Part shown: piece by piece, positions 12,173-64,000 of the stretch | Position numbering within the stretch: position 1 is the stretch's first letter | Layout of the letters: each line of letters starts with the position of its first letter | Source of the DNA: Flexibacter flexilis DSM 6793 | GTDB lineage: Bacteria; Bacteroidota; Bacteroidia; Cytophagales; Flexibacteraceae | Direction of reading: 5' to 3' | Assembly (NCBI RefSeq): GCF_900112255.1 | Contig: NZ_FOLE01000002.1 | Coordinates: forward strand, 379,854-443,853 | DNA length: 64,000 nt | Program-made: the position numbers and the translations under genes | The notes under the pieces: generated by a model | Told to the model about the DNA's origin: nothing | The model's input: only the letters and a program-made list of their open reading frames with translations | Databases searched by the model: none

Positions 12173-13435
12173 TTATTTGTTCTGAACCAATTTGAGGATT
12201 TCAGTTTTGCCTTCGGCCTGAACTTTTAGGAAATAAGTACCAGTGCTAAGTTCCGAACCTTTGAAGATTACTTTATGCTCGCCTGCGTTTTGGATTTCGT
12301 TTACCAACGTACCCAAACGCTGACCCAACATATTGGTTACTTCGATTTTCACAGCACCTTTGCGTTGAAGCGTATAAGAAATTTGTGTTTGCGCTGCAAA
12401 TGGGTTCGGGTATGCGTTTAGTTTCACAGCAGAAGCCAAATTGCCGACACCCGTCACCGCAAACAACACTGTTTCGGACATCGAAACGCCGCATTGGTTG
12501 CTTACGCCTACGCTATAGTTGCCTGAAGCTGTTGGTACAAAATACTGAGTGTTTGCACCTGCAATCATTTGACCATCTTGATACCATTGATAATTCGCAG
12601 CAGCGGCAGCAAACAGCGTATCGGCCACTGCGCTAAGCGTCGGGATAGCTGGCTTGGCGTTCATTTCTACGCTAATGGTGTTCAAGCTATTGTTTGTACA
12701 AGCGCAGTTAAGGGCTTGCGCTGTATATTGGCCTGTTTGGTTTGCCACGTAAGTTGCAGAAGTTGCACCCGCTATCAACTCACCGTTACGATACCATTGC
12801 ACACCGCCTGTTACGTTGGCGTTCAGGGCTACGCTTTGGCCTTCGCAAAGAGACGTTGCGCCATCGGCGGCCAACTGTGGAGCGGCTGGCGTAGAGCAAA
12901 GCAATTGATTTGCGGCAGGCGCAATAAAATCGGCCTGCGCCTTGATGCTTTGGTCTGCAAAATTGGTAATGGCCACAGGAGCTACAATCCATTGCATAGA
13001 GTTTGTACCGCAACGGTTTGTAATCGGGATAGCCACACGACCTACACGGCTACGCGTTTCGGTAATCGGCTGACCTGTACCAGTGCCTGCCGTATATTTT
13101 TTTACGGTAAGGTTCACGAATGTACCCGTACCACCTAAGCCCATTTCGCGGTACGAAGCAGGGTCGAAGGACATATCCCAAACACCGTTCGCCGTATCTA
13201 CTTTTTTCATTTGGCTAAGGTCAAGGTTTTGGTACGACACGTACACGGCAAAGTTAGACGAACCCAACGGAATATCAGCACCCGTCGTTTTTTGTACAAA
13301 AAAGTCTAACAGCAAAGTGGTGTCTTGTACGCTTTGTTCCACTTCCAACTTAAACGTTTTGGCGGTCTGTGCCTGTGCCACCCACGAAGTAGAGGCAGCC
13401 AACACACAAGCGGAAAATATTTTTTTGAAGTTCAT
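12173..13435 (-). CDS. Secreted modular protein with T9SS type A sorting domain
   Basis: A 420-aa exported protein. It has a signal peptide (about 1-22, AQAQ), then an N-terminal beta-rich module (about 24-165, with SSNFAVYV, NSMQWIV and AITNFADQ). Two Ig-like domains follow (about 175-255, with QWYRNGELIAG; and 257-328, with YQWYQDGQMIAG). A C-terminal T9SS type A domain (about 340-420) begins at AYPNPF and includes NMLGQRLGTL and STGTYFLKV. The CTD directs export across the outer membrane and attachment to the cell surface. The N-terminal module resembles that of the 1054-aa protein encoded just upstream. It is the last gene of a three-gene minus-strand cluster. Ligand unknown. Confidence 0.9.
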   Translation of the reverse strand: MNFKKIFSACVLAASTSWVAQAQTAKTFKLEVEQSVQDTTLLLDFFVQKTTGADIPLGSSNFAVYVSYQNLDLSQMKKVDTANGVWDMSFDPASYREMGLGGTGTFVNLTVKKYTAGTGTGQPITETRSRVGRVAIPITNRCGTNSMQWIVAPVAITNFADQSIKAQADFIAPAANQLLCSTPAAPQLAADGATSLCEGQSVALNANVTGGVQWYRNGELIAGATSATYVANQTGQYTAQALNCACTNNSLNTISVEMNAKPAIPTLSAVADTLFAAAAANYQWYQDGQMIAGANTQYFVPTASGNYSVGVSNQCGVSMSETVLFAVTGVGNLASAVKLNAYPNPFAAQTQISYTLQRKGAVKIEVTNMLGQRLGTLVNEIQNAGEHKVIFKGSELSTGTYFLKVQAEGKTEILKLVQNK

Positions 13436-13531
13436 ATCTTAAACTAAATTAAAGATGCTATTAAAAATACATTTTGAGGTTGGGAGAAAAGCGGGTTAAA
13501 GCCTCTCTCCCATTGCCTTGTGTGTGCGCTG

Positions 13532-16500
13532 TTATGGCACCGTAGAGAAATACAAGTTATCGTTGTTGGTCGATGATAAATTATAGTCAGACGCATTGCT
13601 GACACCTGTACCATTCAAATCCGTAGCAAAATAACCAGAGCCTGTAAAACCAGTACCATTAGTAGTAGCTACCGAAACATCATAAAAGTCGTCTCCGTTA
13701 GATTCATTGTTTGCGTCTTTACGGTTATCACCAGCAATCATACCAACTACACCAACATCTAAATCTAAAGCACCAGAGCCATATACTTGGCCAATACTTG
13801 TCGTGAAATTATACGAAGCGGTAGAACCTGCACTAAATGCTACAGGAGTACTTGACATAATAGCTAAGTGGTTGCGATGTTTGACCACAATAAAATAATC
13901 ATTAGGTAACAACGAGCAAGGGAAAATTGCATTAGTACCTACACCAGTTTTATAATCTGTAATAGAACCATCAGACATTAACCAAGCATAAGTAGTATAT
14001 GCAACAGGACCTGTAGCTCCTCCACTACGCAATTCTATCTGAATCACATCAACAGCTCCAGCAGGAACAGATGCACCAGCCCGCATAAGGCTTGTCGGCA
14101 CACCTTCTCCAGCACTTGGCAATGTACCTGTTGCTAAATATTGGTCAGACAAAATAGATGGCACACCCGCACTCAAATCCGTTGTCATGATAGATGCACC
14201 TGAATAGAACCCTTGTAGGAAAAGATTTAAACTAAGTCCTGCACCTGCATCAACACCGATTGTATAACTATTAGAACAACCTCCAGAAGTAACCGTAACA
14301 GTGGCATTTCCTAAAGTAGATATACCAAACTGTAATGTAGCAGTACTTGTACCTGTAAGCAAAGAAACGGCTGATGTACCACTTACAAAAGTGGCCTGCA
14401 CGTCACCAGTCGTAGTTACACTCCAATCAACAGATGAAGATGCAGTTAGTGTGATAGTAGAGGCTTGACAAACACTTGCTGGAGGTGCAGTCAATGTTGG
14501 GGCTGGGGTAACTATTACTATCGCACTACCCGAAACTGTACCTGTACAGTTGGCATCACTAACACTCACCAAAGTATAAGTAGTCGTTGATGTTGGGCTT
14601 ACACTTATACTATGTGGGGAGCTCAATATATTATTAACCGTCACATTACCTGTGCCATCATTGTAAAGCAAATTCCATGGACCTGTACCTGTCAATACAA
14701 CACTCAAACTCGTAGTACCACCTGAACAGATTGAACCACTACCTGACAAGGTTGCCGTTGGTAATGGATTTACCGTTACATCTACCGTTATAGCACTACT
14801 CGTACATCCACCTGCACTCGACGTAATTGTATAGCGTACTACACCTGAACCCGTCAAAGCCTCTGCTATCGTGCTACTTGTTCCTGTCAGTGAAAAACCT
14901 GTTACACTACCACTCTGCAACGCTGCTGTCCAGCTATACGTTGGAGTCGTACCTGTACTGTTCAATACTATGCTTGGCGCACTTCCACTACATACCGTCG
15001 CACTCGTTGGAGTCGCACTCACTACTGGTAACGGATTCACTGTTACCGTCGCACTACCCGAAACTGTACCTGTACAGTTGGCATCACTAACACTCACCAA
15101 AGTATAAGTAGTCGTTGATGTTGGGCTTACACTTATACTATGTGGGGAGCTCAATATATTATTAACCGTCACATTACTTGTGCCATCATTGTAAAGCAAA
15201 TTCCATGGACCTGTACCTGTCAATACAACACTCAAACTCGTAGTACCACCCGAACAGATTGAACCACTACCTGACAAGGTTGCCGTTGGTAATGGATTTA
15301 CCGTTACATCTACCGTTATAGCACTACTCGTACATCCACCTGCACTCGACGTAATTGTATAGCGTACTACACCTGAACCCGTCAAAGCCTCTGCTATCGT
15401 GCTACTTGTTCCTGTCAGTGAAAAACCTGTTACACTACCACTCTGCAACGCTGCTGTCCAGCTATACGTTGGAGTCGTACCTGTACTGTTCAATACTATG
15501 CTTGGCGCACTTCCACTACATACCGTCGCACTCGTTGGAGTCGCACTCACTACTGGTAACGGATTCACTGTTACCGTCGCACTACCCGAAACTGTACTTG
15601 CACAACCGCCACTACTTACACTCTTCAATGTATAAATCGTCGTAGAAGTCGGACTTATCGTAAATGTATAAGGAGAAGAAGTGATGCCTGTTACGTTTAT
15701 ATCACTTGTGCCATCATTATACACCAAATTCCATGTTCCTGTGCCTCCACTCAAGGATACCTTCATTACACGACTCGCACCTGAACACATCGTCGTATCT
15801 GATGTTAAAAAGCTCGCACTTGAACTTGGATTTACCGTTACCGCCAAAGCTGCTGTATCTTTACAAGAACCTGAAGTTGCCTCTACTTTAATATCTCCAG
15901 AAGTCGCGCCAGCAGGGATAGTAACACTCACAGTATCATAACCCAAAGAATCTGCATGGGCAGAAAAAGTAGGTAACGGGCTACTAACTATTGTCGTAAA
16001 CCATGAATAAGTGTAACCAGCCTCTTTCTTTATACGATAATGAAATATATTACCAGCACAAACACTTGTTGCACCTGAGATTGATTCTACCAATGTAGGA
16101 GCTAATGATATTGTTGTAGCTGTAGGAGTGATAGCAGGATAAATTCTCGTTGCGCCAGTTTTGATATTGTTATTATTAAAATCTGTAATAGCACCAGTCG
16201 TAAGCCACTGCATAGTAGGCGAAGCAGAACAGTTCGTTATTTTGAATTTAATTACAGCAATTACTTCCGTCGCGCCAGCAGCCAATAAAACACCACCTGT
16301 TGTCCCCCCTCCTGTTTTCTGGTTGATATTGACAATCAAACGATTTTGACCAGCAAACTGACTTGTAGTAGCCGTTAATAAGTTATAATTGGCTGCACTG
16401 TTAGCAAAATCCCATTTACCTCTCTTATGAATTTTAGGGTTAGCAAAATCAACTGCCGATACAAATGCACTATTAAAATTGACAGGAAAGTTGGAGTTCC

Positions 16501-16696
16501 CAAAGGTAAAAGCAGCTCCCGTATTAGTTACCTTATAGGTCAAATACAATGTATCCGCTCGCACGGTATCGCGCACCTCTAAGTTATAAGCTACTTGGGC
16601 AGAGGCCTGTTGGCTTGCCATGCCCCAAAGCAGCAGTACCACTGCCAGCCAACGAGTTCGTTGTAATAGTTGTAATAGTTGTAATAATTGCTTCAT
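13532..16696 (-). CDS. Large secreted Ig-repeat protein with dockerin-like C terminus
   Basis: A 1054-aa protein. Its signal peptide region opens with an LLQ repeat and ends QQASAQ near residue 34. The N-terminal module (about 36-185; SNFPVNFN, MQWLTTGAITDF) matches that of the neighbouring T9SS protein. Next come Ig/PKD-like repeats (about 200-770) of the type CSGSAPSIVLN...YSW...VTVNPLP. Within them 176 residues (about 374-725) occur twice in tandem, nearly identical in DNA. The C-terminal region (about 830-1054) has the VKHRNHLAIMS motif and Ca-binding-like segments GDNRKDANN and DLNGTGVSNASD, ending NLYFSTVP. No canonical T9SS type A domain is seen. Probably surface adhesion or scaffold; function unproven. 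Confidence 0.85.
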   Translation of the reverse strand: MKQLLQLLQLLQRTRWLAVVLLLWGMASQQASAQVAYNLEVRDTVRADTLYLTYKVTNTGAAFTFGNSNFPVNFNSAFVSAVDFANPKIHKRGKWDFANSAANYNLLTATTSQFAGQNRLIVNINQKTGGGTTGGVLLAAGATEVIAVIKFKITNCSASPTMQWLTTGAITDFNNNNIKTGATRIYPAITPTATTISLAPTLVESISGATSVCAGNIFHYRIKKEAGYTYSWFTTIVSSPLPTFSAHADSLGYDTVSVTIPAGATSGDIKVEATSGSCKDTAALAVTVNPSSSASFLTSDTTMCSGASRVMKVSLSGGTGTWNLVYNDGTSDINVTGITSSPYTFTISPTSTTIYTLKSVSSGGCASTVSGSATVTVNPLPVVSATPTSATVCSGSAPSIVLNSTGTTPTYSWTAALQSGSVTGFSLTGTSSTIAEALTGSGVVRYTITSSAGGCTSSAITVDVTVNPLPTATLSGSGSICSGGTTSLSVVLTGTGPWNLLYNDGTSNVTVNNILSSPHSISVSPTSTTTYTLVSVSDANCTGTVSGSATVTVNPLPVVSATPTSATVCSGSAPSIVLNSTGTTPTYSWTAALQSGSVTGFSLTGTSSTIAEALTGSGVVRYTITSSAGGCTSSAITVDVTVNPLPTATLSGSGSICSGGTTSLSVVLTGTGPWNLLYNDGTGNVTVNNILSSPHSISVSPTSTTTYTLVSVSDANCTGTVSGSAIVIVTPAPTLTAPPASVCQASTITLTASSSVDWSVTTTGDVQATFVSGTSAVSLLTGTSTATLQFGISTLGNATVTVTSGGCSNSYTIGVDAGAGLSLNLFLQGFYSGASIMTTDLSAGVPSILSDQYLATGTLPSAGEGVPTSLMRAGASVPAGAVDVIQIELRSGGATGPVAYTTYAWLMSDGSITDYKTGVGTNAIFPCSLLPNDYFIVVKHRNHLAIMSSTPVAFSAGSTASYNFTTSIGQVYGSGALDLDVGVVGMIAGDNRKDANNESNGDDFYDVSVATTNGTGFTGSGYFATDLNGTGVSNASDYNLSSTNNDNLYFSTVP
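14521..15576 (-). repeat. 528-bp tandem duplication inside the large surface protein gene
   Basis: Bases 14521-15048 and 15049-15576 are head-to-tail copies of 528 bp, exactly 176 codons. By eye they differ at only two positions. Each copy encodes two Ig-like domains. A third, truncated start of the unit (about 21 bases) is at 15577 and then diverges. The near identity implies a recent unequal exchange or active homogenisation. Confidence 0.93.
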
Positions 16697-16756
16697 AAAT
16701 TAAATGTTTAAATTTTTGATAGGGTTAATACGGATTTTTATATTTAGAGTAAGAGT

Positions 16757-18394
16757 TTAAGGCACGGTTGAGAAATATAAATTATCATTTTGGTCTGAGG
16801 AAAGCGTATAATCCGAAGCATTTACAGCTACGTCATTATCAAATTTCACATTGGTATCCAAATAGCCTACGCTCAGGGCATCTTGGTCTGTATTTACACG
16901 AAATAAGTCATTGCCATTGGTTTCGTCCATGCCGTCGGCTTTGTAGTTATCTCCTGCTATCATGGCATAAACGGCGGGGGAAGAATTTACTAACAATGCT
17001 CCTGAGCCATAAACATTGGCAATGTCTGTGAGGTCATAAGAAACGCTGGGCGGGGTTGTCGAAACCGACACCAAGTCATCTGTCATGATGTCCAAGTGGT
17101 TGCGGTGGCGCACCACAAAATGATAACTGCCATTCGTAAGGTTCGGGAACGTTACATAGTCCATTAGGCCACCCGACAGATAATCCACTACGCTCCCGTC
17201 TGCCAACAACCACGCCGTAATCGTTTCTAAATCTGGCCCCTCAGGTGTGGCTCGAGCCGAAATTTGTATCACGTCCACAGCATAGGTAGGGGCTAAATAA
17301 GCACCTGTTTTGCTTGGCAACATTTTCGCTATGGGCTTAAGAGGGTTTGGCATCGTATAAACGGTAGCTGCATTATTTGCCTGAAAATTATTCAAATAAT
17401 TACCATTCTTTAAGCTCACGTCCATAGCTCCTGCAGCATAAGCACCTTGCAACACAACTCTGAGTTTGAGTTTTACGCCATTGTTGCGGCCAACACGATA
17501 ATGTGTTTGGATAGGGTCAAAAAAATTGCGCGTAAAACCAGAAGCAAGTGTTCCACTCACAAAGCCACTACCCAAACCCTGATATACACCATCTTGCGAA
17601 GTGCTTTGCGCTACAATATATTGCTCTGGACTGGTTGCACCTGCGGGCGTTGCGCCAGCATAGCTCAGTACCAAACTATCGTACCCTGAAAAATTAGAAG
17701 GATTAGAAATACTACGCTCCCAATAAATATTGGAAAGATCGGCCACAGATTCGCCCAACACAGGCGTTCCTCCAGATTTGGCCTCAAACGTAATTGCAAA
17801 ATTATCGTTTGTGCCTGCGACTGTTTTGAGGATAACGGGATGATACTGGCCACCTATTCCCACAGGAAAACGACGAACCACACCTTGCCCCAAATAGGTC
17901 ATCGGGCCATCTACATAGGCAGTGTTATCTCCTCCATAAATTTGGCCATTTTTTTGCACTGTTAATATTCCTGCCGAAGTATTAACCAGTCCATTTTGGA
18001 GGATTAGGGATTTATTAACCGACAAATTGCCTGACAAAGTTTTTTGTCCGCCACCCTGAATGTGTAGAGCTCCCACCGTGTCGGCGGCAGCCATCAATAT
18101 TCCCGTAGGGCTACTACTCGTCATCACGATAGTATCTATCCCTACACCATTGAGGTGGCGATAATTCCCATAATTTTTGAGGCTATCCCCTACAAAAATA
18201 CGGCCTTCATTGGCCAAAATTCCTGCTTTATTTATCAAAGAGCCATTAATAGCTACTGTAGTTTTGTTTTTAACAAAAACTAATCCGCCATTATTTACAA
18301 ATTGGCCGTGAGCCACCGAGCCATACACAACACTCCCCAACAAAACCAATAATAGTTTCTTTGTAGGGAGTAACATCTTTAACATTTTTGCCAT
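16757..18394 (-). CDS. Secreted protein with HRNHL/dockerin-like C terminus
   Basis: A 545-aa protein. I use ATG 18394 (MAKMLKMLLP), directly after an in-frame GTG. The signal peptide ends near VAHGQ. The N-terminal half has short beta-strand repeats (INGSLINKAGILANEGRIF, about 48-66; then SLILQNGLVNTSAG), suggestive of a beta-helix-like fold. The C-terminal half carries the same arrangement as the 1054-aa protein: LRVVLQGAY, WLLADGSVVDY, FVVRHRNHLDIMTDD, MIAGDNYKADG, VNASDYTLSSDQNDN and the terminal NLYFSTVP. It is the first gene of the cluster and lies 60 bases upstream of the next. Secretion route and ligand are unknown; no type A sorting domain is visible. Confidence 0.85.
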   Translation of the reverse strand: MAKMLKMLLPTKKLLLVLLGSVVYGSVAHGQFVNNGGLVFVKNKTTVAINGSLINKAGILANEGRIFVGDSLKNYGNYRHLNGVGIDTIVMTSSSPTGILMAAADTVGALHIQGGGQKTLSGNLSVNKSLILQNGLVNTSAGILTVQKNGQIYGGDNTAYVDGPMTYLGQGVVRRFPVGIGGQYHPVILKTVAGTNDNFAITFEAKSGGTPVLGESVADLSNIYWERSISNPSNFSGYDSLVLSYAGATPAGATSPEQYIVAQSTSQDGVYQGLGSGFVSGTLASGFTRNFFDPIQTHYRVGRNNGVKLKLRVVLQGAYAAGAMDVSLKNGNYLNNFQANNAATVYTMPNPLKPIAKMLPSKTGAYLAPTYAVDVIQISARATPEGPDLETITAWLLADGSVVDYLSGGLMDYVTFPNLTNGSYHFVVRHRNHLDIMTDDLVSVSTTPPSVSYDLTDIANVYGSGALLVNSSPAVYAMIAGDNYKADGMDETNGNDLFRVNTDQDALSVGYLDTNVKFDNDVAVNASDYTLSSDQNDNLYFSTVP

Positions 18395-31070: not shown

Positions 31071-34000
31071 TTGAGACAAAACACACCACTATATAGCCGC
31101 ATCATCAGAGGGGTGTTTCGGGGTATCAAACGCCTCGTAACAGTGGTTACTATTGTGTTTCTTTCAATTACATTTGCGCTGCAAGTTCCTTATTTCCAGA
31201 CAATTATTGTACAAAAGCTCGCCAAAGAACTTTCCATAGCCTTAGGCTTCCCTGTTAGCATTGGGCGCGTGGATATACGTTGGTTTGACACGCTGGAGCT
31301 TGACAATATCGTCATCAAAGACCAGTTGCACAATCCCATGATTGAGGCCAAACGCATTGAAGCAGATTTTGAGCTTTCGGCTTTGGTGCAGCGTAACATT
31401 CGTCTTGACCACGTGCTTTTGCGTAATGGCAATGTCAATATTTGCACTGATACCATTACCCAAAAAATGAATATCAATGAGTTTATCAAATCCATTAACC
31501 GACTCATTGACGACACGTCCACGAAGCGTTCAGCTTCACCTCCTATTTTTGCCATTACGGATATAGAATTGGAAAATGTAAAACTGGCTATCAGCGATTT
31601 TACGGAAGATTCTATTACCGACCGTTTCGACTACTATCATATCCGTTTTGATTCTTTAAGTGCTAATGTACAAGGGTTTAGAGTTCGTTCGGATACACTG
31701 GATTTGCAAGTAAATGGCCTGACGGGTGTCGAAACAGGCTCTAACATTCGGATTCATTACCTGAATACTTTTTTTAGATACACCGAACAGACCATGCATT
31801 TATGGAATTTGGATGCGCGTCTGAACAATACTTTTGTATCTGATACGCTCGAATTTTTTTATGACGACACCGATTATTTCAAAGATTTTAATGAAAAAAT
31901 AGTCATGTATGCGCACATGGACAGTTCCATTATCAGTGCCGCAGATATTGCACTATTTGCCCCCGAACTCAAGCCATTCAACGAAACGGTAACGCTAAGT
32001 GGTTTTTTCAAAGGAAAAGTCAGTGATTTTAACGTCCGAAACTGTACGGCTTCATTCGGCAATAACAGTTATTTTCAGGGTGGTTTTAGTATGAAAGGCT
32101 TGCCCGATTTTGACGAAACTTTTATTGCGGCCAAAGTAAAAAATGCCCTGATAGACCCTTCTGATTTGAGGCAATACGTTGACAATGAAGATGCAATACA
32201 AACCATCAACAAATTTGGGACAATAGATTTTAAGGGAAGTTTCAACGGTTTCCCGTCCGACTTTGTGGCGGCAGGTGTTTTTAACTCTGATTTGGGTAAA
32301 ATAGAAACGGATTTGCGCCTGACGCTGGCCGACGATTCTCGCTTTTCTACTTATGAAGGAAATTTGCACACCGAAGGGCTGGACATTGGCGTACTGACCG
32401 ACAACCATGATTTGCTGGGGCTGATAGACATGAAAGGCCACATCAAAGGGCAAGGCTTTACGTTGGCTTCTGCCTCGGCAGACGTGGACGCGACCGTTAG
32501 ACGCATTGGGTTGAATAAATACGACTATCATAACATTGTTATTAACGCCACGCTGGGCAAGCGGCTTTTTAGTGGTCATTTGGAAATTGACGACCCGAAT
32601 TTGGTATTTAACACCAACAGTACCATAGACTTGCGCTCCGCCAACAATATTTTTGATGTACAAGCGCAAGTGCTAACGGCTAATTTGCAGGCCTTGCATT
32701 TGAGCCAAAAACCTGCCGAATTTAGTACGGTGGCCAACATTCATTTTACGGGTGTGGAAACCGATGCCATTGCGGGAAATGCCGTGTTTATGAACACGGA
32801 TGTGAGCTACGATAAACAAAATTTGTTTCTGGATTCGGTGAGTTTGTCCACCAAAGTAAATAACCGCTACCGCACTTTCCGTCTCGATTCGGATTGGTTT
32901 AAAGCGCAAGCCAAAGGCCATTTTAATTTTGAAGAGCTGCTCAACGATGTACCCGACTTAGTTAGCGAATACGCGCTTATTTTGCAAAACAAACAAAGCG
33001 AAATCGACCGATTTTATGCCCAACGCCGCAAGCATCAGCGCAAACATCGCCAGCATTATCCCGAATACGACATTGATTTTACGATGTTGTTGCGCAATAT
33101 CAATCCGATTATTTATTTGTTTGATAATCAGTATTATGTAGCGAAAAATACGCGTTTGGAAGGCAGCTTCAGCAACGGCAAAAATAGTACCGTGTTGCTC
33201 AGCTCGCACCCAGACACGCTTAAACTCCAAAATCATTGGTTTTATGGTTCGGACGTGGATTTTTCCGCTTCCAAAGTGGCCGACAGTACCGACATTGTGG
33301 CCTCTGCTTATGTGTATTCGCGTAAGCAACGTTTTGAAGGCTTGCCCGCCAGCCAAAATATGTTTGTAGATGCTACTTGGAGCGATAAGCATATTAATTT
33401 TTCTTCTCGCATAGACCAACAAAAAAGCACGAATTACGCGCGTTTGGCGGGTGATATTTATTTCCGAAAAGGCCAAACAGAAGCCAATATTCGCCCTTCG
33501 GTAATTCATTTGCTGGGCAAAAGTTGGGAAATAGCCGATAATAACGCCCTTGTGCTATTGGAAAACCAAAATATTTTGGTCAGAAATCTACAAATCAGTA
33601 ATGGCCAGCAACTCATTAAAACAGAAGGCATTGTAGCCAAAAATACAACTGATTCGCTGCAAATTTTGGTACAAAATTTTGAGCTACTCACCTTAGACAC
33701 GCTCTTGGATTTGGGGCTTACGGGTTTGGTAAATGCCAATGTGGGCGTGCGCAATATTTGGGCAGACCCGACGGCACGCGGACAGGTACAAGTCGGAGCT
33801 TTGTCGGTGGATGATTTTCTGATTGGTGATGTAAACGGCATGGCTCTTTGGGACGAAGTGCGCCAGAAATTGCGCATTAACTTGGACATCAACCGCCTAC
33901 AAGCCAACGTGCTAAAAGTAATCGGCCATTATGACCCGCGCGGTGGCGAAAACGAATTGGATATGAATATTTTGGTAAATGGCCTGAGTATCAAACTGAT

Positions 34001-35690
34001 AGAGCCATTTATCCGAGATTATTTGTCCGAATGGGGCGGCTTGGCCGAAGGAACGCTTAAATTGCATGGCCGCAGCAGCAATCCGATTCTTGACGGCGAT
34101 TTGCTGGTGGACAAAGGCACGTTTAAAGTAAATATCATTAACACCGTGTACACATTTGCCGACAAAATCCATTTTGGCGAAGGCGAAATCAGTTTTAATA
34201 ATGTTCGAATCGTGGACGAAAACCAAAACGTTGGGCAAATACGCACGGGCAAAATATGGCATACTGGTTTCAAAAATTGGGGTATAGATTTGTTCGGTGA
34301 CTTGCGTAACTTTCAGGTAATGAACCTCAAATCGCAACGCAAAGCCCTTTATTACGGCACGGCCAACGTAACAGGCTCGATGTATATGCGCGGCGCGTTT
34401 AGCAACCTGAGCATTGGGGCAGACGTGCGCAGCGAAAAAGGCACGAAAATTTATATTCCTGTATCTTCTTACTACGAAGAAGACGAAAGTATCGAACAAG
34501 ATTTTATTCATTTTGTGGGAAAAACTTCTGCACTCGATACGGCGCAGGCTTCCGACACGATTCCGAAAGTGAGCTTGTCGGGTTTGAAATTGGATTTTAA
34601 TTTTGAACTAACGCCCGAAGCCTATGGCGAATTGATTTTTGACCAAAAAGCAGGCGATATTGTACGCGCCAACGGCGAAGGAAAAATCAAATTGGGGCTG
34701 GATACGCGCGGCGATTTTACGATGTTCGGGCAATACAACATTACGAAAGGTTCATATAATTTTACACTCAAAAACCTTGTAAACAAGGCATTTACGATTC
34801 AACCCAACAGTTACATTAGTTGGAATGGCGACCCGCTGGGTGGACAAATGAACATTACGGCCAGTTATAATCTGAACGCTTCGCTCAAACCCATTGCCAC
34901 CAACACAGATTCTGCCTTTTTGGCCAAACCCGAACTACAACGCAAATACCCGACTGCCGTAAATATGCGTTTGGAAGGCGGTTTACTTTCGCCTCAGATT
35001 GGTTTGGGACTCAAAATTATGGATTATCCGTCGGTAATGAGTAGCTATGTTACGAGTTTTGAAGCCAAGATCCAGAACAACGAACAGGAACTTAATCGCC
35101 AAGTTTTCAGCTTGTTGCTGTTGCGTAGTTTTATGGCGGAAGGCACGCAAAGCGGCGTAAGCATTGGGGCGGGCGGCAGTATTAGCGAATTGCTTTCTAA
35201 TCAGTTGAGTTCTTGGGTTTCGGAAATTGACCCGAATTTGCAAGTAGAAGTAGATGCCAACGGCCTCGACCGCGAAGCCCTTAACGCGATTCGCACGCGT
35301 GTTTCTTACAATTTTATGGAAGGCCGTTTGCGCGTAACCCGCGACGGCACGTTTACTAATGCCCAAAATCAAGCCACCGCCACCAGCGTTGCGGGGGACT
35401 GGACACTGGAATATTTACTTACGCGCAATGGACGTTTCAGGATAAAAGCTTTCCACAAAAACAGCCAAAACGTTATTTCTACGGCCCTGAACAACAACAA
35501 CAATACTTCGCAGGGTGTGAGTATTATGCACACACAAAGTTTTGATAGTCTGCGAGATATATTGCCTTGGCGCAGGCGCAAAAAAGCCGACAAACCCGCT
35601 CCTACGCCTGCCGTTTTGCCCAAACCAACCCAAACGGACAGCAGCACAATTGCACCAACAGACACGCTTGCGCCTGTGATTATTCCGTAA
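31071..35690 (+). CDS. tamB: TamB-like translocation/assembly module protein
   Basis: A 1539-aa envelope protein. One N-terminal membrane anchor lies at about 20-40 (VTVVTIVFLSITFALQV), then a long periplasmic AsmA/TamB-type beta-rich region (SIGRVDIRWFDTLELDNIVIKD near 58-79), and a C-terminal TamB (DUF490) domain about 1100-1480 with LKLDFNFELTPEAYGELIFD and a G-rich strand pattern. The tail is Pro/Thr-rich. TamB-type proteins bridge the inner and outer membranes and take part in lipid transport and outer-membrane biogenesis. The start appears to be TTG 31071: no ATG occurs in frame before residue 91, and the anchor lies upstream of it. No TamA partner is in the window. Confidence 0.9.
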   Translation: MRQNTPLYSRIIRGVFRGIKRLVTVVTIVFLSITFALQVPYFQTIIVQKLAKELSIALGFPVSIGRVDIRWFDTLELDNIVIKDQLHNPMIEAKRIEADFELSALVQRNIRLDHVLLRNGNVNICTDTITQKMNINEFIKSINRLIDDTSTKRSASPPIFAITDIELENVKLAISDFTEDSITDRFDYYHIRFDSLSANVQGFRVRSDTLDLQVNGLTGVETGSNIRIHYLNTFFRYTEQTMHLWNLDARLNNTFVSDTLEFFYDDTDYFKDFNEKIVMYAHMDSSIISAADIALFAPELKPFNETVTLSGFFKGKVSDFNVRNCTASFGNNSYFQGGFSMKGLPDFDETFIAAKVKNALIDPSDLRQYVDNEDAIQTINKFGTIDFKGSFNGFPSDFVAAGVFNSDLGKIETDLRLTLADDSRFSTYEGNLHTEGLDIGVLTDNHDLLGLIDMKGHIKGQGFTLASASADVDATVRRIGLNKYDYHNIVINATLGKRLFSGHLEIDDPNLVFNTNSTIDLRSANNIFDVQAQVLTANLQALHLSQKPAEFSTVANIHFTGVETDAIAGNAVFMNTDVSYDKQNLFLDSVSLSTKVNNRYRTFRLDSDWFKAQAKGHFNFEELLNDVPDLVSEYALILQNKQSEIDRFYAQRRKHQRKHRQHYPEYDIDFTMLLRNINPIIYLFDNQYYVAKNTRLEGSFSNGKNSTVLLSSHPDTLKLQNHWFYGSDVDFSASKVADSTDIVASAYVYSRKQRFEGLPASQNMFVDATWSDKHINFSSRIDQQKSTNYARLAGDIYFRKGQTEANIRPSVIHLLGKSWEIADNNALVLLENQNILVRNLQISNGQQLIKTEGIVAKNTTDSLQILVQNFELLTLDTLLDLGLTGLVNANVGVRNIWADPTARGQVQVGALSVDDFLIGDVNGMALWDEVRQKLRINLDINRLQANVLKVIGHYDPRGGENELDMNILVNGLSIKLIEPFIRDYLSEWGGLAEGTLKLHGRSSNPILDGDLLVDKGTFKVNIINTVYTFADKIHFGEGEISFNNVRIVDENQNVGQIRTGKIWHTGFKNWGIDLFGDLRNFQVMNLKSQRKALYYGTANVTGSMYMRGAFSNLSIGADVRSEKGTKIYIPVSSYYEEDESIEQDFIHFVGKTSALDTAQASDTIPKVSLSGLKLDFNFELTPEAYGELIFDQKAGDIVRANGEGKIKLGLDTRGDFTMFGQYNITKGSYNFTLKNLVNKAFTIQPNSYISWNGDPLGGQMNITASYNLNASLKPIATNTDSAFLAKPELQRKYPTAVNMRLEGGLLSPQIGLGLKIMDYPSVMSSYVTSFEAKIQNNEQELNRQVFSLLLLRSFMAEGTQSGVSIGAGGSISELLSNQLSSWVSEIDPNLQVEVDANGLDREALNAIRTRVSYNFMEGRLRVTRDGTFTNAQNQATATSVAGDWTLEYLLTRNGRFRIKAFHKNSQNVISTALNNNNNTSQGVSIMHTQSFDSLRDILPWRRRKKADKPAPTPAVLPKPTQTDSSTIAPTDTLAPVIIP

Positions 35691-57904: not shown

Positions 57905-60900
57905 ATGAGAAAATTTTTCCTATTTCTTGGCACAATTGCCTTGATGGGATTTAACAGTTGGGGACAAACAAGTAGAACGACTAAACAAACGTTTACCTCT
58001 TCCAATGTTGGTCTTCGCTCCCAACCTGCTAAATCTACCTCCCAAGTGCCAGCCGCCATACCAACGCCACCAGCACATCGAACATGTGCTTCGGTAGAGT
58101 ACAATAACCGATTGGCACAACAATATCCGCAACAACGCGGCACTAATGCACAATTTGAACAATGGATTAGCCAAAAAATGCAGGAAGAACAAACAAAACG
58201 TTTGGCTAACAACAACAATACCAATAGCACACAGGCTACGCTTATCAAAATACCTGTGATTGTCCATGTAATTCATAATGGGCAAGCAGTTGGAACTGCA
58301 CCCAATATTTCGGCAGCTCAAATCCAGTCACAAATAGACGTTTTAAACGAAGATTTCCGCAAGAAAGTAGGAACAGCAGGTTATAACACTAACGTTGTTG
58401 GTGCTGATATGGAGATCGAATTTGTGTTGGCATTGCGCAACCCAAGTGGTACTACATTGGCCGAGCCAGGTATTCACCGCTACAATGGCGGAGCAGCCAG
58501 CTATACAGAAGCTACCTTAGAAAGCACTATTAAGCCTGCTACTTCATGGGATCCGACCAAATACCTAAATCTTTGGACTGTCAACTTTGGTGGTGCAGAC
58601 GCTCAAACATTAGGTTATGCGCAGTTTCCAAATTCTTCGGGGCTTGCGGGACTTAATGCCAACGAAGGAGTTTCCAATACCGATGGTGTGGTGATTGGTG
58701 CTAGTTACTTTGGTAGAGTCGGTTCTGTATCTGCTCCTTTTAACAAAGGGCGTACAGCTACACATGAAATTGGACACTGGTTAGGCCTACGCCACATTTG
58801 GGGCGATGCAAGCTGCGGTACAGATTATTGTAACGATACTCCTGTACACGCTGAGGAAAATTATGCACCAACAAGCAACCCGAACGGCTGTTTTACACAC
58901 CCAAAATCTAATACGTGTGGCACAGCAGACGAAATGTTTGAAAATTATATGGATTACACCAACGATGCGTGTATGAATATTTTTACAAACGATCAAAAGA
59001 GTCGTATGAGAACCGTAATGACCAACTCTCCACGTCGTGCGGAACTTATTAACTCTACGGTAGCAACACCAGCGGGCGTACCTGTTCCGTCGTTTACTTC
59101 CAATACTGATGGCGGTTGTGCTCCTGTAACAATCACTTACACGAATACTTCTACAGGTAGCCCAACAGCTTATTCTTGGTCGTTCCCTGGCGGTACGCCT
59201 TCTACTTCTACGGCTACAAACCCAACCGTAACATATAGCACGGCAGGTGTTTATGACGTAACGCTAACAGCAACCAATGCCAGCGGTTCGGCTTCAACCA
59301 CCTCTTCTCAGTATGTATTTGTAGGTAACCCAACCACCTATACATTACCTGCTAGTTTTGGATTTGAAGTAGCCAATATGCCTGTGGGTTGGTTGATTGG
59401 AAACCCTGATGCAGACACGACATGGCGTAGAATTGGGGTAGGGGCATTTGGTACAAGTTCTTATTCAGCTTATATCAATAACTACGAATATGACGGTGTC
59501 GGCAAAATAGATGCTATTTATACGGCAAAGTATAGCTTTGCTAACGCTACCTCAGGTCAATTAAAATTTGATGTGGCTTATGCAGCTTATAGTGCAACTA
59601 GTGCAGATACGCTATTGCTTTATTATTCTACGGATTGCGGAAATACATTTACGCAGTTCTACAAAAAAGGAGGAAATACCTTATCTACCAATGGAGGTGT
59701 ATATGTTACTAGCTCTAAGTTTCTTCCTACGGCTTCTCAATGGCGTACCGAAACAATCACCTTGCCTACGATTCTGAATGGTAAGTCTAATGTGATGTTT
59801 GCTTTTGTAAACAAATGTGATTATGGTAATAACTTGTATTTGGATAACATCAATATATCTACGACAGTACCTGCCATTGTAGCCAATTTTGGTTCGTCAT
59901 CTCCGACGGTTTGTATGAGTAATACAGTGTCTTATTATAGCACTTCTACGGGTAGCCCAACAGCATTTTCTTGGACGTTTGCAGGTGGCACCCCTTCTAC
60001 TTCTACATCAGCAACTCCTGTAGTTACTTATAACACACCTGGTACTTATTCTGTTACGATGACGGCCAGTAATGCTAGTGGTTCAAACACTATTACCAAG
60101 ACAAATTACATTACGGTTTTGGGTAGTGCGGTTTCTTATCCGTTACCATTTTCAGAAACCTTTGAGTCAACCACATTCCCACCTACAGCAGATTGGAAAG
60201 TGGCGAACCCTGATGCGGATAGCTACACTTGGGTTCGTTCAACGGCGGCTGGCGGATTTGGTACTTCTACGGCTTCCGCTATGGTTAATAACTATAACAA
60301 TAGTGTAACTGGTAGAAAAGATACACTTTATACTCCTTACATTGACTTTACGGGAGCAAATAATCCTAATTTTGATTTTGATATAGCGTATGCACCTTAT
60401 AATGCGACAAGTACAGATACACTTATTGTATTATATACAGTAGATTGCGGACAGAGCTATCAGCAACTATTCAAAAAAGGAGGATTGGAACTCTCAAGTA
60501 CCAATGCCACGTATGCAGGATCTGGAATATTTCTCCCAACCGCAACACAATGGTACACACTCACTTCTGTTGCCAGCTATTGGGTGAATAAAAAAGTAAA
60601 ATTTGCTTTTGTAAACAAAACAGGCTTCGGCAATCAATTATATATTGATAACATCAAAGCCTATAATGGCACATTGCCAACTGCGCCAGTGGCCAACTTT
60701 ACATCTAACAAAGATGGAGGTTGTGCACCGCTTGCGGTTAGTTTCACGGATCTATCAACGAATAGCCCAACATCTTGGTTGTGGTCATTCCCTGGAGGTA
60801 CTCCTTCTTCTTCTACCGCCCAGAATCCAAGTGTAACTTATAGTACACCAGGTATTTATAACGTAACATTAACTGCAACCAATGCAGGAGGCTCTAACAC

Positions 60901-63900
60901 GATTAAGCAAACCTCATATATCATCGTAGGTTCAACTACGCCGACGGCTTTACCTCTTTCAGAAACATTTGAAGGAAGTACATTTCCTGCAACCAACTGG
61001 GATATTTATAACCCAAATGCAGATACGACTTGGCGCAAAACTACGGCTGTTGGAGGGTACGGCAACAGTACATCTTCTATTTTTATCCGAAACGCTAGCA
61101 ATACACTAGTAGGCAGTTTAGATGGTTATTCTTTCCCAACGGTTAATCTAACAACCATTACTTCTCCGCGCCTTATGTTTGATGTGGCCTATGCCCGTTA
61201 CTCAGCCAATTATTCTGATACGCTTATAGTAGCTTACTCTGCGGATTGTGGAGTTACTTATTCTGTGCTTTGGAAAAAAGGTGGTACCGAGTTGTCTTCT
61301 ATTGGTGTAGATCAAACAGCAACATTTACGCCAACAGCTACACAATGGAAAACAGAAACCGTTTCGTTGGCTTCTATCGCTACACTTGCTAATGTAAAAT
61401 TGATGATGATTAACAAAAATGGGTATGGCAATAACCTGTATTTGGATAACATTTTGATTAATTCATCTGCGGTGGCCATTGCACCAAATGCGTTATTTAC
61501 TTCTAATAAAATGGGTGGTTGCCTAGGTACACAAGTGCAATTCACAGACCAATCTACGAATACGCCAACAGCTTGGGCCTGGTCCTTCCCTGGAGGTACA
61601 CCTGCCAGCTCTACAGCACAAAACCCGTTGGTTACTTACAATACCGCTGGTAGTTATAACGTAGTGCTCACTGTGTCTAATGGGGCGGGAAGCAATACCA
61701 TTACCAAAACAGGGTACATTACTGTTTTCAGTAATACAACTACGTCTTTGCCTATCACTGCTGATTTTGAATCTACAACATTCCCTCCATCTGGTTGGTT
61801 GTTGTATAACCCAAATGCAGATACTACATGGAGACGCACAACCACCGCCAGTGGCTTTGGAACAAGTACAGCCTCTGCGATGATTAACTATTTTGGATAT
61901 AGTGGTGGTACTGGACGCCTTGACGGTATTATGTCGCCAAAAGTAATGTTTAGTGGTTTGGTAAATCCAGAAATTAGCTTTGATGTGGCTTATGCTCGTT
62001 ATAGTGCAAGTAGTTCAGATTCGTTGTATGTAATGGCTTCTACTGACTGCGGCGCAACATTTAGCACGCTCTGGAAAAAAGGTGGTACAGAACTTTCTAC
62101 AAATGGAGGTACTGACTTAATGAGCTCTTTCACACCGACTGCTGCGCAATGGAGACGCGATGTAGTGGCTCTTCAAGCCCTCAAAAACGCAGGAATTGTA
62201 CAATTAGCCCTTATTGGACGTAATGCTTTTGGTAACAAATTGTATTTGGATAACATCAATATTGCAGAAAGCAACTGTACCAAGCCTGTAGCGACGGTTA
62301 CGCCATCGGCAAACAGCATCTGTACTGGCAACATTGCAGCATTGGTATTGTCGAGCACAATTCCGAATACAACTTATAGCTGGACTGTAACAACCACTGG
62401 TACTGTAACTGGCGCAACAGCTGGTAGCGGTGCTGGAATTGCCCAAACACTTTCAGGTGTAGGTACAGTTACCTATACAGTTACACCTGTGGCTGGTACT
62501 TGCTACGGCTTACCTGTAAGCAAAACTATCACAGTAAATGCAATCCCAACAGCTTCGGCTTCAGCTACCGCAACAGACGTTTGTGCTGGCTCTGCTATCC
62601 AACTAAATGCTACGACTGTAGCTGGTGCAACTTACACATGGTCTGGCCCGAATGGATTCACTTCATCTCTGCAAAATCCAACCATTGCTAATGCCACAAC
62701 GGCAGCTTCGGGTAACTACGCCTTGACGGTAACCGTAAACAGTTGTACAAGCCCTGTTTCTTCGTTTGATATAGTTGTAAGTGCAAAACCAACGGCTTCT
62801 GCATCTTCTACTACTACCATTGCTTGTGCTGGCACTACACTGCAATTAAATGCAGCCACAGTAGCCAATGCTTCGTATGCTTGGACGGGGCCGAACGGAT
62901 TTAGCTCGACAAGCCAAAATCCAAGCATTGCCAACGCAACAGTTGCAGCTTCGGGTACGTATTCTTTAACAGTAACTACCAACGGTTGTACAAGTACAGC
63001 TTCTACGGTAGCTATTACGGTAAAACCATTACCAACCGTAACGGCATCTACAACTACTGCATCTATTTGTGCAGGTGGTACGATCCAATTAAATGGTTCT
63101 ACGGTAGCTAATGCATCTTACGCTTGGACTGGCCCGAACGGATTTAGCTCGACAAGCCAAAACCCAAGCATCAGCAATGCAACGACGGCTGCTGCTGGCA
63201 ACTATGCCTTGACGGTAACTGTAAACGGTTGTACAAGTGCTGTTTCTTCGGTTGATGTGATGGTAAATGCCAAGCCAACGGCTTCTGCTTCTAGCACTAC
63301 TACTATTGCTTGTGCTGGTACTACACTGCAATTGAATGCAGCAACAGTAGCTAATGCGTCTTATGCTTGGACAGGGCCTAACGGATTTACTTCTACAAGT
63401 CAAAATCCAAGCATTGCCAACGCAACAGTTGCAGCTTCGGGTACGTATTCTTTGACGGTAACTACTAACGGTTGTACAAGTACAGCTTCTACGGTAGCTA
63501 TTACGGTAAAACCATTACCAACCGTAACAGCATCTACAACTACTGCATCTATTTGCGTTGGTGGAACTATACAGTTGAATGGCTCTACTGTGGCTAATGC
63601 ATCTTACGCTTGGACTGGCCCGAATGGATTTAGCTCGACAAGCCAAAACCCAAGCATCAGTAACGTAACTACATCTGCTGCTGGCAACTATGCCTTGACG
63701 GTAAGCGTTAACGGTTGTACAAGTGCTGTTTCTTCGGTTGATGTGGTGGTAAATGCCAAGCCTACAGCTTCCGCTTCGGTTACAAATGCTTCGGTTTGTG
63801 CTGGTTCTACGATTCAATTGAATGCCGCTACTGTAGTTAATGCGTCTTATGCTTGGACAGGCCCTAACGGATTTACTTCTACAAGTCAAAATCCAACGAT

Positions 63901-64000
63901 TACTGGCGCGACAACAGCAGCCTCAGGTAATTACTCTTTGGTAGTAACAACAAATGGTTGTACAAGCGCACCTTCGTTTGTTGATATATTCGTAAACACA
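57905..64000 (+). CDS. Giant secreted M43 (pappalysin) metalloprotease with PKD, anchor-J-like and Ig repeats (cut by window edge)
   Basis: The frame is open to the window end, giving at least 2032 codons. It has a signal peptide (about 1-21). The catalytic domain (about 110-375) has the extended zinc motif HEIGHWLGLRH with His287, Glu288, His291 and His297, and a Met-turn ENYMDY (Met349). Four PKD domains follow (from about nt 59080, 59870, 60690 and 61480), each followed by a domain of about 180 aa resembling choice-of-anchor J. A PKD-like domain comes next (about nt 62275-62545). Then Ig-like units of 81 aa begin at nt 62546. It is surely secreted; the C-terminal sorting signal is outside the window. 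Probable role: surface or extracellular protease with adhesive repeats. Confidence 0.93.
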   Translation, partial: MRKFFLFLGTIALMGFNSWGQTSRTTKQTFTSSNVGLRSQPAKSTSQVPAAIPTPPAHRTCASVEYNNRLAQQYPQQRGTNAQFEQWISQKMQEEQTKRLANNNNTNSTQATLIKIPVIVHVIHNGQAVGTAPNISAAQIQSQIDVLNEDFRKKVGTAGYNTNVVGADMEIEFVLALRNPSGTTLAEPGIHRYNGGAASYTEATLESTIKPATSWDPTKYLNLWTVNFGGADAQTLGYAQFPNSSGLAGLNANEGVSNTDGVVIGASYFGRVGSVSAPFNKGRTATHEIGHWLGLRHIWGDASCGTDYCNDTPVHAEENYAPTSNPNGCFTHPKSNTCGTADEMFENYMDYTNDACMNIFTNDQKSRMRTVMTNSPRRAELINSTVATPAGVPVPSFTSNTDGGCAPVTITYTNTSTGSPTAYSWSFPGGTPSTSTATNPTVTYSTAGVYDVTLTATNASGSASTTSSQYVFVGNPTTYTLPASFGFEVANMPVGWLIGNPDADTTWRRIGVGAFGTSSYSAYINNYEYDGVGKIDAIYTAKYSFANATSGQLKFDVAYAAYSATSADTLLLYYSTDCGNTFTQFYKKGGNTLSTNGGVYVTSSKFLPTASQWRTETITLPTILNGKSNVMFAFVNKCDYGNNLYLDNINISTTVPAIVANFGSSSPTVCMSNTVSYYSTSTGSPTAFSWTFAGGTPSTSTSATPVVTYNTPGTYSVTMTASNASGSNTITKTNYITVLGSAVSYPLPFSETFESTTFPPTADWKVANPDADSYTWVRSTAAGGFGTSTASAMVNNYNNSVTGRKDTLYTPYIDFTGANNPNFDFDIAYAPYNATSTDTLIVLYTVDCGQSYQQLFKKGGLELSSTNATYAGSGIFLPTATQWYTLTSVASYWVNKKVKFAFVNKTGFGNQLYIDNIKAYNGTLPTAPVANFTSNKDGGCAPLAVSFTDLSTNSPTSWLWSFPGGTPSSSTAQNPSVTYSTPGIYNVTLTATNAGGSNTIKQTSYIIVGSTTPTALPLSETFEGSTFPATNWDIYNPNADTTWRKTTAVGGYGNSTSSIFIRNASNTLVGSLDGYSFPTVNLTTITSPRLMFDVAYARYSANYSDTLIVAYSADCGVTYSVLWKKGGTELSSIGVDQTATFTPTATQWKTETVSLASIATLANVKLMMINKNGYGNNLYLDNILINSSAVAIAPNALFTSNKMGGCLGTQVQFTDQSTNTPTAWAWSFPGGTPASSTAQNPLVTYNTAGSYNVVLTVSNGAGSNTITKTGYITVFSNTTTSLPITADFESTTFPPSGWLLYNPNADTTWRRTTTASGFGTSTASAMINYFGYSGGTGRLDGIMSPKVMFSGLVNPEISFDVAYARYSASSSDSLYVMASTDCGATFSTLWKKGGTELSTNGGTDLMSSFTPTAAQWRRDVVALQALKNAGIVQLALIGRNAFGNKLYLDNINIAESNCTKPVATVTPSANSICTGNIAALVLSSTIPNTTYSWTVTTTGTVTGATAGSGAGIAQTLSGVGTVTYTVTPVAGTCYGLPVSKTITVNAIPTASASATATDVCAGSAIQLNATTVAGATYTWSGPNGFTSSLQNPTIANATTAASGNYALTVTVNSCTSPVSSFDIVVSAKPTASASSTTTIACAGTTLQLNAATVANASYAWTGPNGFSSTSQNPSIANATVAASGTYSLTVTTNGCTSTASTVAITVKPLPTVTASTTTASICAGGTIQLNGSTVANASYAWTGPNGFSSTSQNPSISNATTAAAGNYALTVTVNGCTSAVSSVDVMVNAKPTASASSTTTIACAGTTLQLNAATVANASYAWTGPNGFTSTSQNPSIANATVAASGTYSLTVTTNGCTSTASTVAITVKPLPTVTASTTTASICVGGTIQLNGSTVANASYAWTGPNGFSSTSQNPSISNVTTSAAGNYALTVSVNGCTSAVSSVDVVVNAKPTASASVTNASVCAGSTIQLNAATVVNASYAWTGPNGFTSTSQNPTITGATTAASGNYSLVVTTNGCTSAPSFVDIFVNT
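62546..64000 (+). repeat. 243-bp Ig-domain repeats with a 486-bp higher-order period
   Basis: Units start at 62546, 62789, 63032, 63275, 63518 and 63761, each 243 bp (81 codons). Alternate units are more alike than neighbours: 62789-63274 and 63275-63760 form two similar 486-bp dimers. The first base of a third dimer would be 63761. The array continues past the window. Confidence 0.9.

Follow-up and report, generated by a model that had tools for sequence, protein, structure and literature searches.

Three adjacent genes of Flexibacter flexilis DSM 6793 are predicted to encode a small cohesin-dockerin surface assembly with a T9SS anchor

In a 64,000-nucleotide stretch of the genome of Flexibacter flexilis DSM 6793 (hereafter the window, whose numbering is used for all window coordinates), three consecutive minus-strand genes were analyzed: those of protein 1 (P0003, 545 amino acids (aa), 16757..18394), protein 2 (P0002, 1054 aa, 13532..16696) and protein 3 (P0001, 420 aa, 12173..13435). 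We propose, with a probability of about 0.78, that they encode a small cohesin-dockerin surface assembly anchored by the type IX secretion system (T9SS). This assembly is supported by the gene order, the modules, their homology and predicted fold, the co-conservation of the modules in other genomes, the restriction of the sorting tail to the anchor, and, in the wider family, covariation of the dockerin with the cohesin encoded next to it.

In the proposed assembly, protein 3 would be exported through the T9SS by means of its C-terminal sorting domain, be held on the cell surface and present a single N-terminal cohesin. Protein 2 would be an adaptor: its C-terminal X-dockerin would plug into protein 3's cohesin, the Ig-like repeats would form a stalk, and a cohesin of its own, at the N-terminus, would take up the X-dockerin of protein 1, which would be the outermost cargo. 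We infer that the proteins bind physically, that binding depends on calcium, and that the exact pairing is 1 to 2 and 2 to 3. The function of the cargo is probably adhesion or a surface coat.

Modules of the three proteins

The original prediction described three consecutive secreted proteins with exchanged terminal modules, and the open reading frames (ORFs) were confirmed at the positions given above. The genes of proteins 1 and 2 are separated by 60 bp and those of proteins 2 and 3 by 96 bp; an alternative start of protein 1 is a GTG (18397), one codon earlier. A signal-peptide-like N-terminal stretch can be read in each sequence. Scans of the cluster found about as many promoters and terminators as scans of shuffled sequences (17 versus 15.5 promoters, 6 versus 5.8 terminators), and it is therefore the spacing alone that suggests co-transcription of the three genes.

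Both of the shared modules that had been predicted were recovered by alignment. Over their last ~250 aa, proteins 1 and 2 are identical in 103 of 257 aligned columns (40%; E 3e-32 in a single comparison) and have the common end NDNLYFSTVP; this region is called here the C-module. Over their first ~190 aa, proteins 2 and 3 are identical at 61 of 196 positions (31%; E 3e-12), with SNF, MQW and AITDF/AITNF common to both; this is the N-module. Of the three proteins, protein 3 alone has a T9SS sorting domain, as predicted (type A, TIGR04183/PF18962, 12188..12412, minus strand; TIGR04183 6.6e-12, Por_Secre_tail 8.7e-10). The Pfam and NCBIfam scans gave no sorting tail for proteins 1 and 2, and the Pfam scan gave no match of any kind for protein 1 (E<=1). 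Between its two terminal modules, protein 3 has an Ig-like middle part.

The N-module of protein 3 (12896..13369, minus strand) was modelled by AlphaFold2 (AF2) from an alignment of 44 rows, which left out L017:12245-14488, and the resulting model (m7a3b2906a374) has a pLDDT of 82.8 and a pTM of 0.80. All 28 matches of this model to the PDB by Foldseek at E<=0.001 are, by title, cohesins or cohesin-containing complexes. In the VIA comparison, the best row reaches Z 12.5 (4uyq, 136 residues, 2.7 A), and the first clearly different row, an adhesin domain, appears at rank 49 with Z 8.4. PF00963 is matched by 6 of the 44 aligned relatives at E<=0.1 (best 9e-8) and by 4 of 92 bodies of C-module proteins (best 2.2e-23); when the N-module profile is compared with the PDB, cohesins rank first with a weak score (0.015). 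On the evidence of the model, the N-module common to proteins 2 and 3 is thus predicted to have a cohesin fold, in agreement with the suggestion that the C-terminal part has a partner module. The cohesin module of protein 2 (16112..16597, minus strand) was assigned by homology to that of protein 3 and to the family.

The C-module consists of a beta domain containing HRNHL followed by a dockerin-type segment. In protein 1 these occupy 16967..17479 (approximate boundaries) and 16760..16966; in protein 2, where the beta domain was placed by homology to protein 1, they occupy 13745..14245 (approximate boundaries) and 13535..13744, all on the minus strand. The dockerin segments were assigned by comparing the family profile with the PDB, and the second loop of that of protein 2 is DLNGTGVSNASD. 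For the family analysis, 124 C-module ORFs were found; seven were dropped from the alignment because of length or truncation (four of them, in L035, L037, L041 and L044, have an internal module) and L024:11921-12688 was also left out, leaving 116 members. The consensus of these 116 rows ends in two D-x-N-x-D-G loops. PF00404 (Dockerin_1) is matched by 41 of the 116 members at E<=0.1 (best 2e-7) and the NCBIfam model dockerin_GC by three. Against the PDB, the two top matches of the family profile (6.2e-7) are chains named "Serine protease", and its last ~60 columns match chains of dockerin complexes (2vn5 1.3e-5, 2vn6 2.8e-5, 4fl4 9e-5, and more). The matches to dockerin models and complexes support the dockerin-like character that had been suggested for the C-terminal part.

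The AF2 model of the protein 1 C-module (m3e75bc0156ad; pLDDT 79.4, pTM 0.81) aligns best to eight X-dockerin-bearing chains, which fill rows 1-8 of the VIA comparison (Z 8.2-6.9, 138-147 residues; six entries titled type II, together with 4fl4 and 3kcp), and the next row has Z 4.8. For this reason we regard the HRNHL part as resembling the cellulosomal X-module. As modelled, the C-module would be an X-module-like beta domain with a dockerin-type tail, and its closest structural likeness is to the cellulosomal X-dockerins.

The middle of protein 2 is occupied by Ig_7-type (CHU_C-associated) repeats (14549..15808, minus strand), detected by the Pfam scan. The repeats have a period of 528 bp, and two copies are 93% identical over 300 nucleotides (window 14473-15300); this tandem repeat is a recent duplication of the Ig repeat. 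In the PDB, the repeat region also has a match (3e-89) in the entry for GhpA, the grappling hook protein of Aureispira.

Beyond the cluster, the plus strand of the window encodes a very long secreted-looking protein (57905-64000, running off the end), in which repeats of the PKD, MAM and Ig types come after an M43 metallopeptidase domain, and a TamB homologue (31071-35690; PF04357 2e-42) that is unrelated to the cluster.

Gene neighbourhood, co-occurrence and partner specificity

The F. flexilis genome contains three copies of the C-module and five of the N-module. At a second locus, a protein of 1139 aa carrying both modules and the dockerin loop DVNMNGKVDVAD is followed, 24 bp later, by a protein of 653 aa with an N-module and a CHU_C/type B tail, and then by a PorP/SprF gene. 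Since the same arrangement is found a second time in the genome, that of the cluster is not a chance repetition. At a third locus, an N-module protein with a CHU_C tail also adjoins a PorP/SprF gene. Two cohesin proteins with CHU_C/type B tails and adjacent PorP/SprF-family genes (TIGR03519 4e-65 and 8e-61) were recorded at L009:6183-12663 and L010:4777-7746 of the same genome, which implies that both types of T9SS anchor carry cohesins in one genome. Five related genomes have near full-length relatives of protein 3 (27-40% identity), each encoded directly 3' of a C-module gene with a gap of 0-12 bp. One reading is that the arrangement of proteins 1 and 3 is the older one and that protein 2 was inserted between them later.

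The neighbourhood of C-module genes was analyzed in two sets of loci. The first comprised 78 loci fetched by the C-module alone (the best 80 of 185 matching places were kept) from Bacteroidota, Ignavibacteria-related bacteria, Calditrichota, KSB1, Cloacimonadota and a few other records. The gene following the 121 C-module genes of this set is a cohesin gene in 32 cases, another C-module gene in 18, some other same-strand gene in 47 and an opposite-strand gene in 15, and it is missing at the edge in nine. Conversely, 32 of the 40 cohesin genes lie directly 3' of a C-module gene on the same strand, and cohesins make up 32 of 97 same-strand neighbours downstream versus 6 of 83 upstream (p 1.4e-5); the cohesin profile was itself derived from these C-module-chosen loci, so that the adjacency in this set is not fully independent. 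The second set consisted of 60 further regions picked by hand from matches in genome samples, from which weak dockerin-only matches in ORFs of ~2,000 aa and some stronger ones were left out; L113 was treated as the same genome as L014, and L120 as L047. Here the next gene of 70 C-module genes is a cohesin gene in 28 cases (median gap from C-module gene to cohesin gene, 44 bp), a C-module gene in four, another gene in 34 and an opposite-strand gene in four. About 25 of these 34 other genes start like divergent cohesins when read by eye, and one variant downstream family could be linked to the cohesin by hhalign (50-78%; controls <=0.9%).

Chains like that of the window, with a C-module gene followed by a gene with both modules and then by a cohesin gene, were found at L015, L017, L081 and L166. 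At L061 and L064, both from metagenome-assembled genomes of Roseivirga, C-module genes alternate with genes of ~570-650 aa with a secretion-type N-terminus. These were considered as divergent cohesins and dropped, their ends being read as helix-turn-helix regulators; the C-module genes of L061 and L064 are accordingly counted as having no adjacent cohesin.

Co-occurrence was determined in two genome samples, which were chosen independently of the C-module although they were searched with the same profiles. Among 59 genomes (that of the window and its relatives), 12 have the C-module, 15 the cohesin and 11 both, where 3.05 are expected (p 5.4e-8). A cohesin match starts within 500 bp downstream of 14 of the 21 C-module matches in these genomes and upstream of none; three of the 21 belong to F. 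flexilis itself. In the sample of 296 genomes from the phylum, the C-module occurs in 43, the cohesin in 21 and the two together in 19 (3.05 expected, p 3.4e-16). In seven of the 19 (G164, G214, G221, G244, G264, G330 and G338), the cohesin match lies only inside an ORF of ~2,000-2,200 aa that also holds a dockerin-type match. These ORFs, more closely ~1,970-2,200 aa and judged to be single by the length of the open frame, have the dockerin-type match a few hundred bases before the cohesin match. When the seven ambiguous genomes are taken out, 12 of 14 cohesin genomes also have the C-module (2.03 expected, p 1.5e-9). The original prediction had named lack of co-conservation as an outcome that would speak against the scaffold idea; the genes are co-conserved, with a cohesin in 11 of 12 and 19 of 43 C-module genomes.

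Partner specificity was addressed by a swap test on 62 unique adjacent pairs, of which those from the 15 genomes with at least two pairs gave 21 comparisons, with p values from sign flips. For each dockerin, the profile of its similarity to the pairs of other genomes was compared with that of the cohesin of its own neighbour or with that of the other pair's cohesin. For the dockerin segment, the fit to its own neighbour is the better one in 14 of the 21 comparisons, all nine differences larger than 0.1 being positive (p 0.0047), whereas for the HRNHL part of the same proteins this is so in 8 of 21 (p 0.63). The contrast is robust to three cut points and two similarity measures (p 0.00025-0.0053 for the dockerin; p 0.23-0.65 for the HRNHL part, including a shortened version), and matching dockerin-cohesin types are visible by eye. 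Because joint inheritance would affect both parts alike, the fact that the dockerin follows the cohesin and the HRNHL part does not argues for recognition. Within genomes, the covariation of the dockerin segment with the neighbouring cohesin thus points to dockerin-cohesin recognition.

Sorting tails and export

The original prediction had allowed that the C-terminal region might prove to be a known stand-alone T9SS sorting domain, but a match to such a domain at E<=0.01 was obtained for 0 of the 116 C-module termini, and this absence, together with the dockerin likeness, rules that assignment out. The C-termini of 61 cohesin genes, two of them from repeated genomes (L113, L120), match type A in 55 cases and type B in four at E<=0.001, counts that may overlap. 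In a wider check with a tail profile, built from these 61 tails and hence matching 60 of them by construction, a T9SS-like tail is found in 2 of 193 C-module proteins versus 96 of 611 other genes. A strongly hydrophobic stretch lies within the first 60 residues of 101 of 109 C-module proteins versus 203 of 438 other genes.

The dockerin cargo has a signal-peptide-like N-terminus and yet no T9SS tail. SprA is present in the F. flexilis genome, as export of protein 3 by the T9SS would require. We put forward, as a tentative and rather doubtful suggestion, that the cargo may first join its cohesin partner in the periplasm and that the folded complex may pass through the SprA channel by virtue of the partner's tail. 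If this were so, the cohesin-T9SS protein would be a carrier for co-secretion as well as an anchor, and close gene pairs would favour assembly.

The cargo itself is varied. In a scan of 92 C-module protein bodies, selected by length and complete ends, 80 Pfam families were matched, and among 25 of them are beta-helix, FG-GAP and Ig families, di-haem peroxidase, GH57, the cohesins of adaptors, and peptidases of the M14, C10, S8 and reprolysin types.

Weighing of alternatives and relation to known systems

It is important to mention that several observations weigh against the proposed assembly. No window protein matches a Pfam cohesin or dockerin model (E<=1) or the NCBIfam equivalents, and such matches came from family-level searches only. 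Among the calcium-binding-like loops in the original prediction, loop 2 of protein 2 makes a good EF-type loop; the other three of the four (loop 1 of proteins 1 and 2 and loop 2 of protein 1) are degenerate, all being read by eye. The dockerin part of the protein 1 model is moderately confident (10-residue means 53-84), the best E of this model in Foldseek is 0.012, and the C-module profile also matches, at weaker E, unrelated EF-hand proteins and cyanovirin constructs. The same-strand neighbour has no detected cohesin for 47 of 121 C-module genes in the first set and 34 of 70 in the second, no link to the cohesin profile could be made for the downstream genes of variant V2 ("QAGIF"), and no cohesin match was obtained in 24 of the 43 phylum-sample genomes with a C-module, some of which have variant downstream genes. 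In the swap test, the two pairs of the window itself are near zero (+0.036 for the dockerin part, -0.049 for the whole module), and a weak link joins the HRNHL part to the dockerin of the same protein (15 of 21 positive, p 0.0078; 0.007-0.31 in variants). Finally, two C-module proteins do have a tail, L024:10496-12691, with a weak C-module match, and L041:2789-11716, in which the module is internal; both lie outside the 116-member set.

The same modules could also build a head-to-tail polymer, in which protein 2 would bind itself and form a surface fibre with protein 3 as its base and protein 1 as its cap. The two modules are combined both in protein 2 and in the protein of 1139 aa at the second locus, and the last residues of the protein 1 and protein 2 dockerins are nearly identical, so that one cohesin type may serve both; swapping the two pairs of the window makes almost no difference. 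At the chain loci L015 and L081, however, adaptor and anchor carry cohesins of different types, and it is the true pairs that fit better in the swap test (+0.644 and +0.462 for the dockerin part), which speaks for a directed chain there, and we consider a polymer unlikely. Smaller still is the chance that the C-module itself serves as a signal for export or retention, being a sorting domain not yet described, and has a general export component rather than the neighbouring protein as its partner. It sits at the C-terminus, where a T9SS tail would be and none of the 116 members has one, nearly all C-module proteins have the hydrophobic N-terminal stretch that signal peptides would show, and many of their genes lack a detected cohesin neighbour. 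Such a signal is nevertheless hard to reconcile with the dockerin homology, the adjacency and co-occurrence with the cohesin, and the covariation of dockerin and cohesin, and we judge it improbable.

Bacteroidota commonly have surface proteins that are rich in Ig and PKD domains and shuffle them, and the three proteins might be no more than tandem surface proteins whose common domains arose by duplication, their joint inheritance reflecting linkage and not binding. Linked genes are indeed inherited together, but linkage would affect the HRNHL and dockerin parts alike, whereas the dockerin part alone follows the cohesin; moreover, by homology the modules are a known binding pair. This explanation appears the least probable of all, and we retain the anchored cohesin-dockerin chain as the preferred reading. 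A cellulosome proper was also considered and rejected, since no glycoside hydrolase or carbohydrate-binding module (CBM) was matched in the three window proteins and each has at most one cohesin. By analogy, the cluster would work like the anchoring step of a cellulosome, and we do not classify it as a cellulosome.

Among the closest likenesses is that to the type II cohesin/X-dockerin anchoring of clostridial cellulosomes (2b59, 4u3s), with which the cluster would share a C-terminal X-module-like beta domain plus dockerin and a cohesin fold on a cell-anchored partner. Unlike these, the cluster belongs to a bacterium with an outer membrane, uses a T9SS domain as the anchor, has one cohesin per protein and adjacent partner genes, and shows neither an enzyme or cellulose-binding module in its proteins nor a Pfam match for its modules. 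In Ca. Stygibacter (Cloacimonadota), PMC8542988 infers a cellulosome-like complex in which a scaffoldin of 3,755 aa with tandem cohesins and CBMs collects hydrolases. Like the cluster, it has dockerin proteins and a cohesin protein, the latter said to be held by a C-terminal domain (CTD), and Cloacimonadota loci are also in our first set; the cluster differs in its single-cohesin partners beside their dockerin genes, its adaptor chain and the lack of an enzyme match in its proteins. The same modules also occur outside cellulosomes, in archaea and other bacteria, and PMC5244752, citing Peer et al. (2009), calls their function there not known; in the present case, in contrast, gene neighbourhood and covariation allow a partner, an anchor and a signal of specificity to be named.

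Among T9SS surface proteins, PMC9143113 suggests that those of type B are held by PorP-like partners. Protein 3 has a type A tail, and two other cohesin proteins of the genome have CHU_C/type B tails next to PorP/SprF; the cargo and the adaptor differ from these in having no tail, and would be held by their dockerins. Modules of this kind have rarely been reported in the group: for some of its cellulose degraders, PMC5831590, PMC3534657, PMC6247017 and PMC6851124 report that the genomes or cellulases under study lack cohesins, dockerins and scaffoldins. Neither cohesin nor dockerin was found when the main text of a review of T9SS effectors was searched for these terms. No paper describing a gene-pair cohesin-dockerin system in Bacteroidota was found among the matches listed, which were judged by title and the start of the abstract and cover subscription journals thinly. 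Cohesin-dockerin pairs, and a CTD-anchored version inferred in Cloacimonadota, are thus already known; what is new is the compact gene-pair version and its chain form across the Fibrobacteres-Chlorobi-Bacteroidetes (FCB) group.

The C-module was found in 43 of the 296 sampled genomes of the phylum, and it is easily missed because 75 of its 116 members have no Pfam dockerin match at E<=0.1. The finding suggests a function and a partner for this widespread C-terminal domain of secreted proteins, including predicted proteases and di-haem peroxidases, and the distinct dockerin-cohesin types could be useful for surface display. It also brings within reach of experiment the way in which tail-less surface proteins pass the outer membrane.

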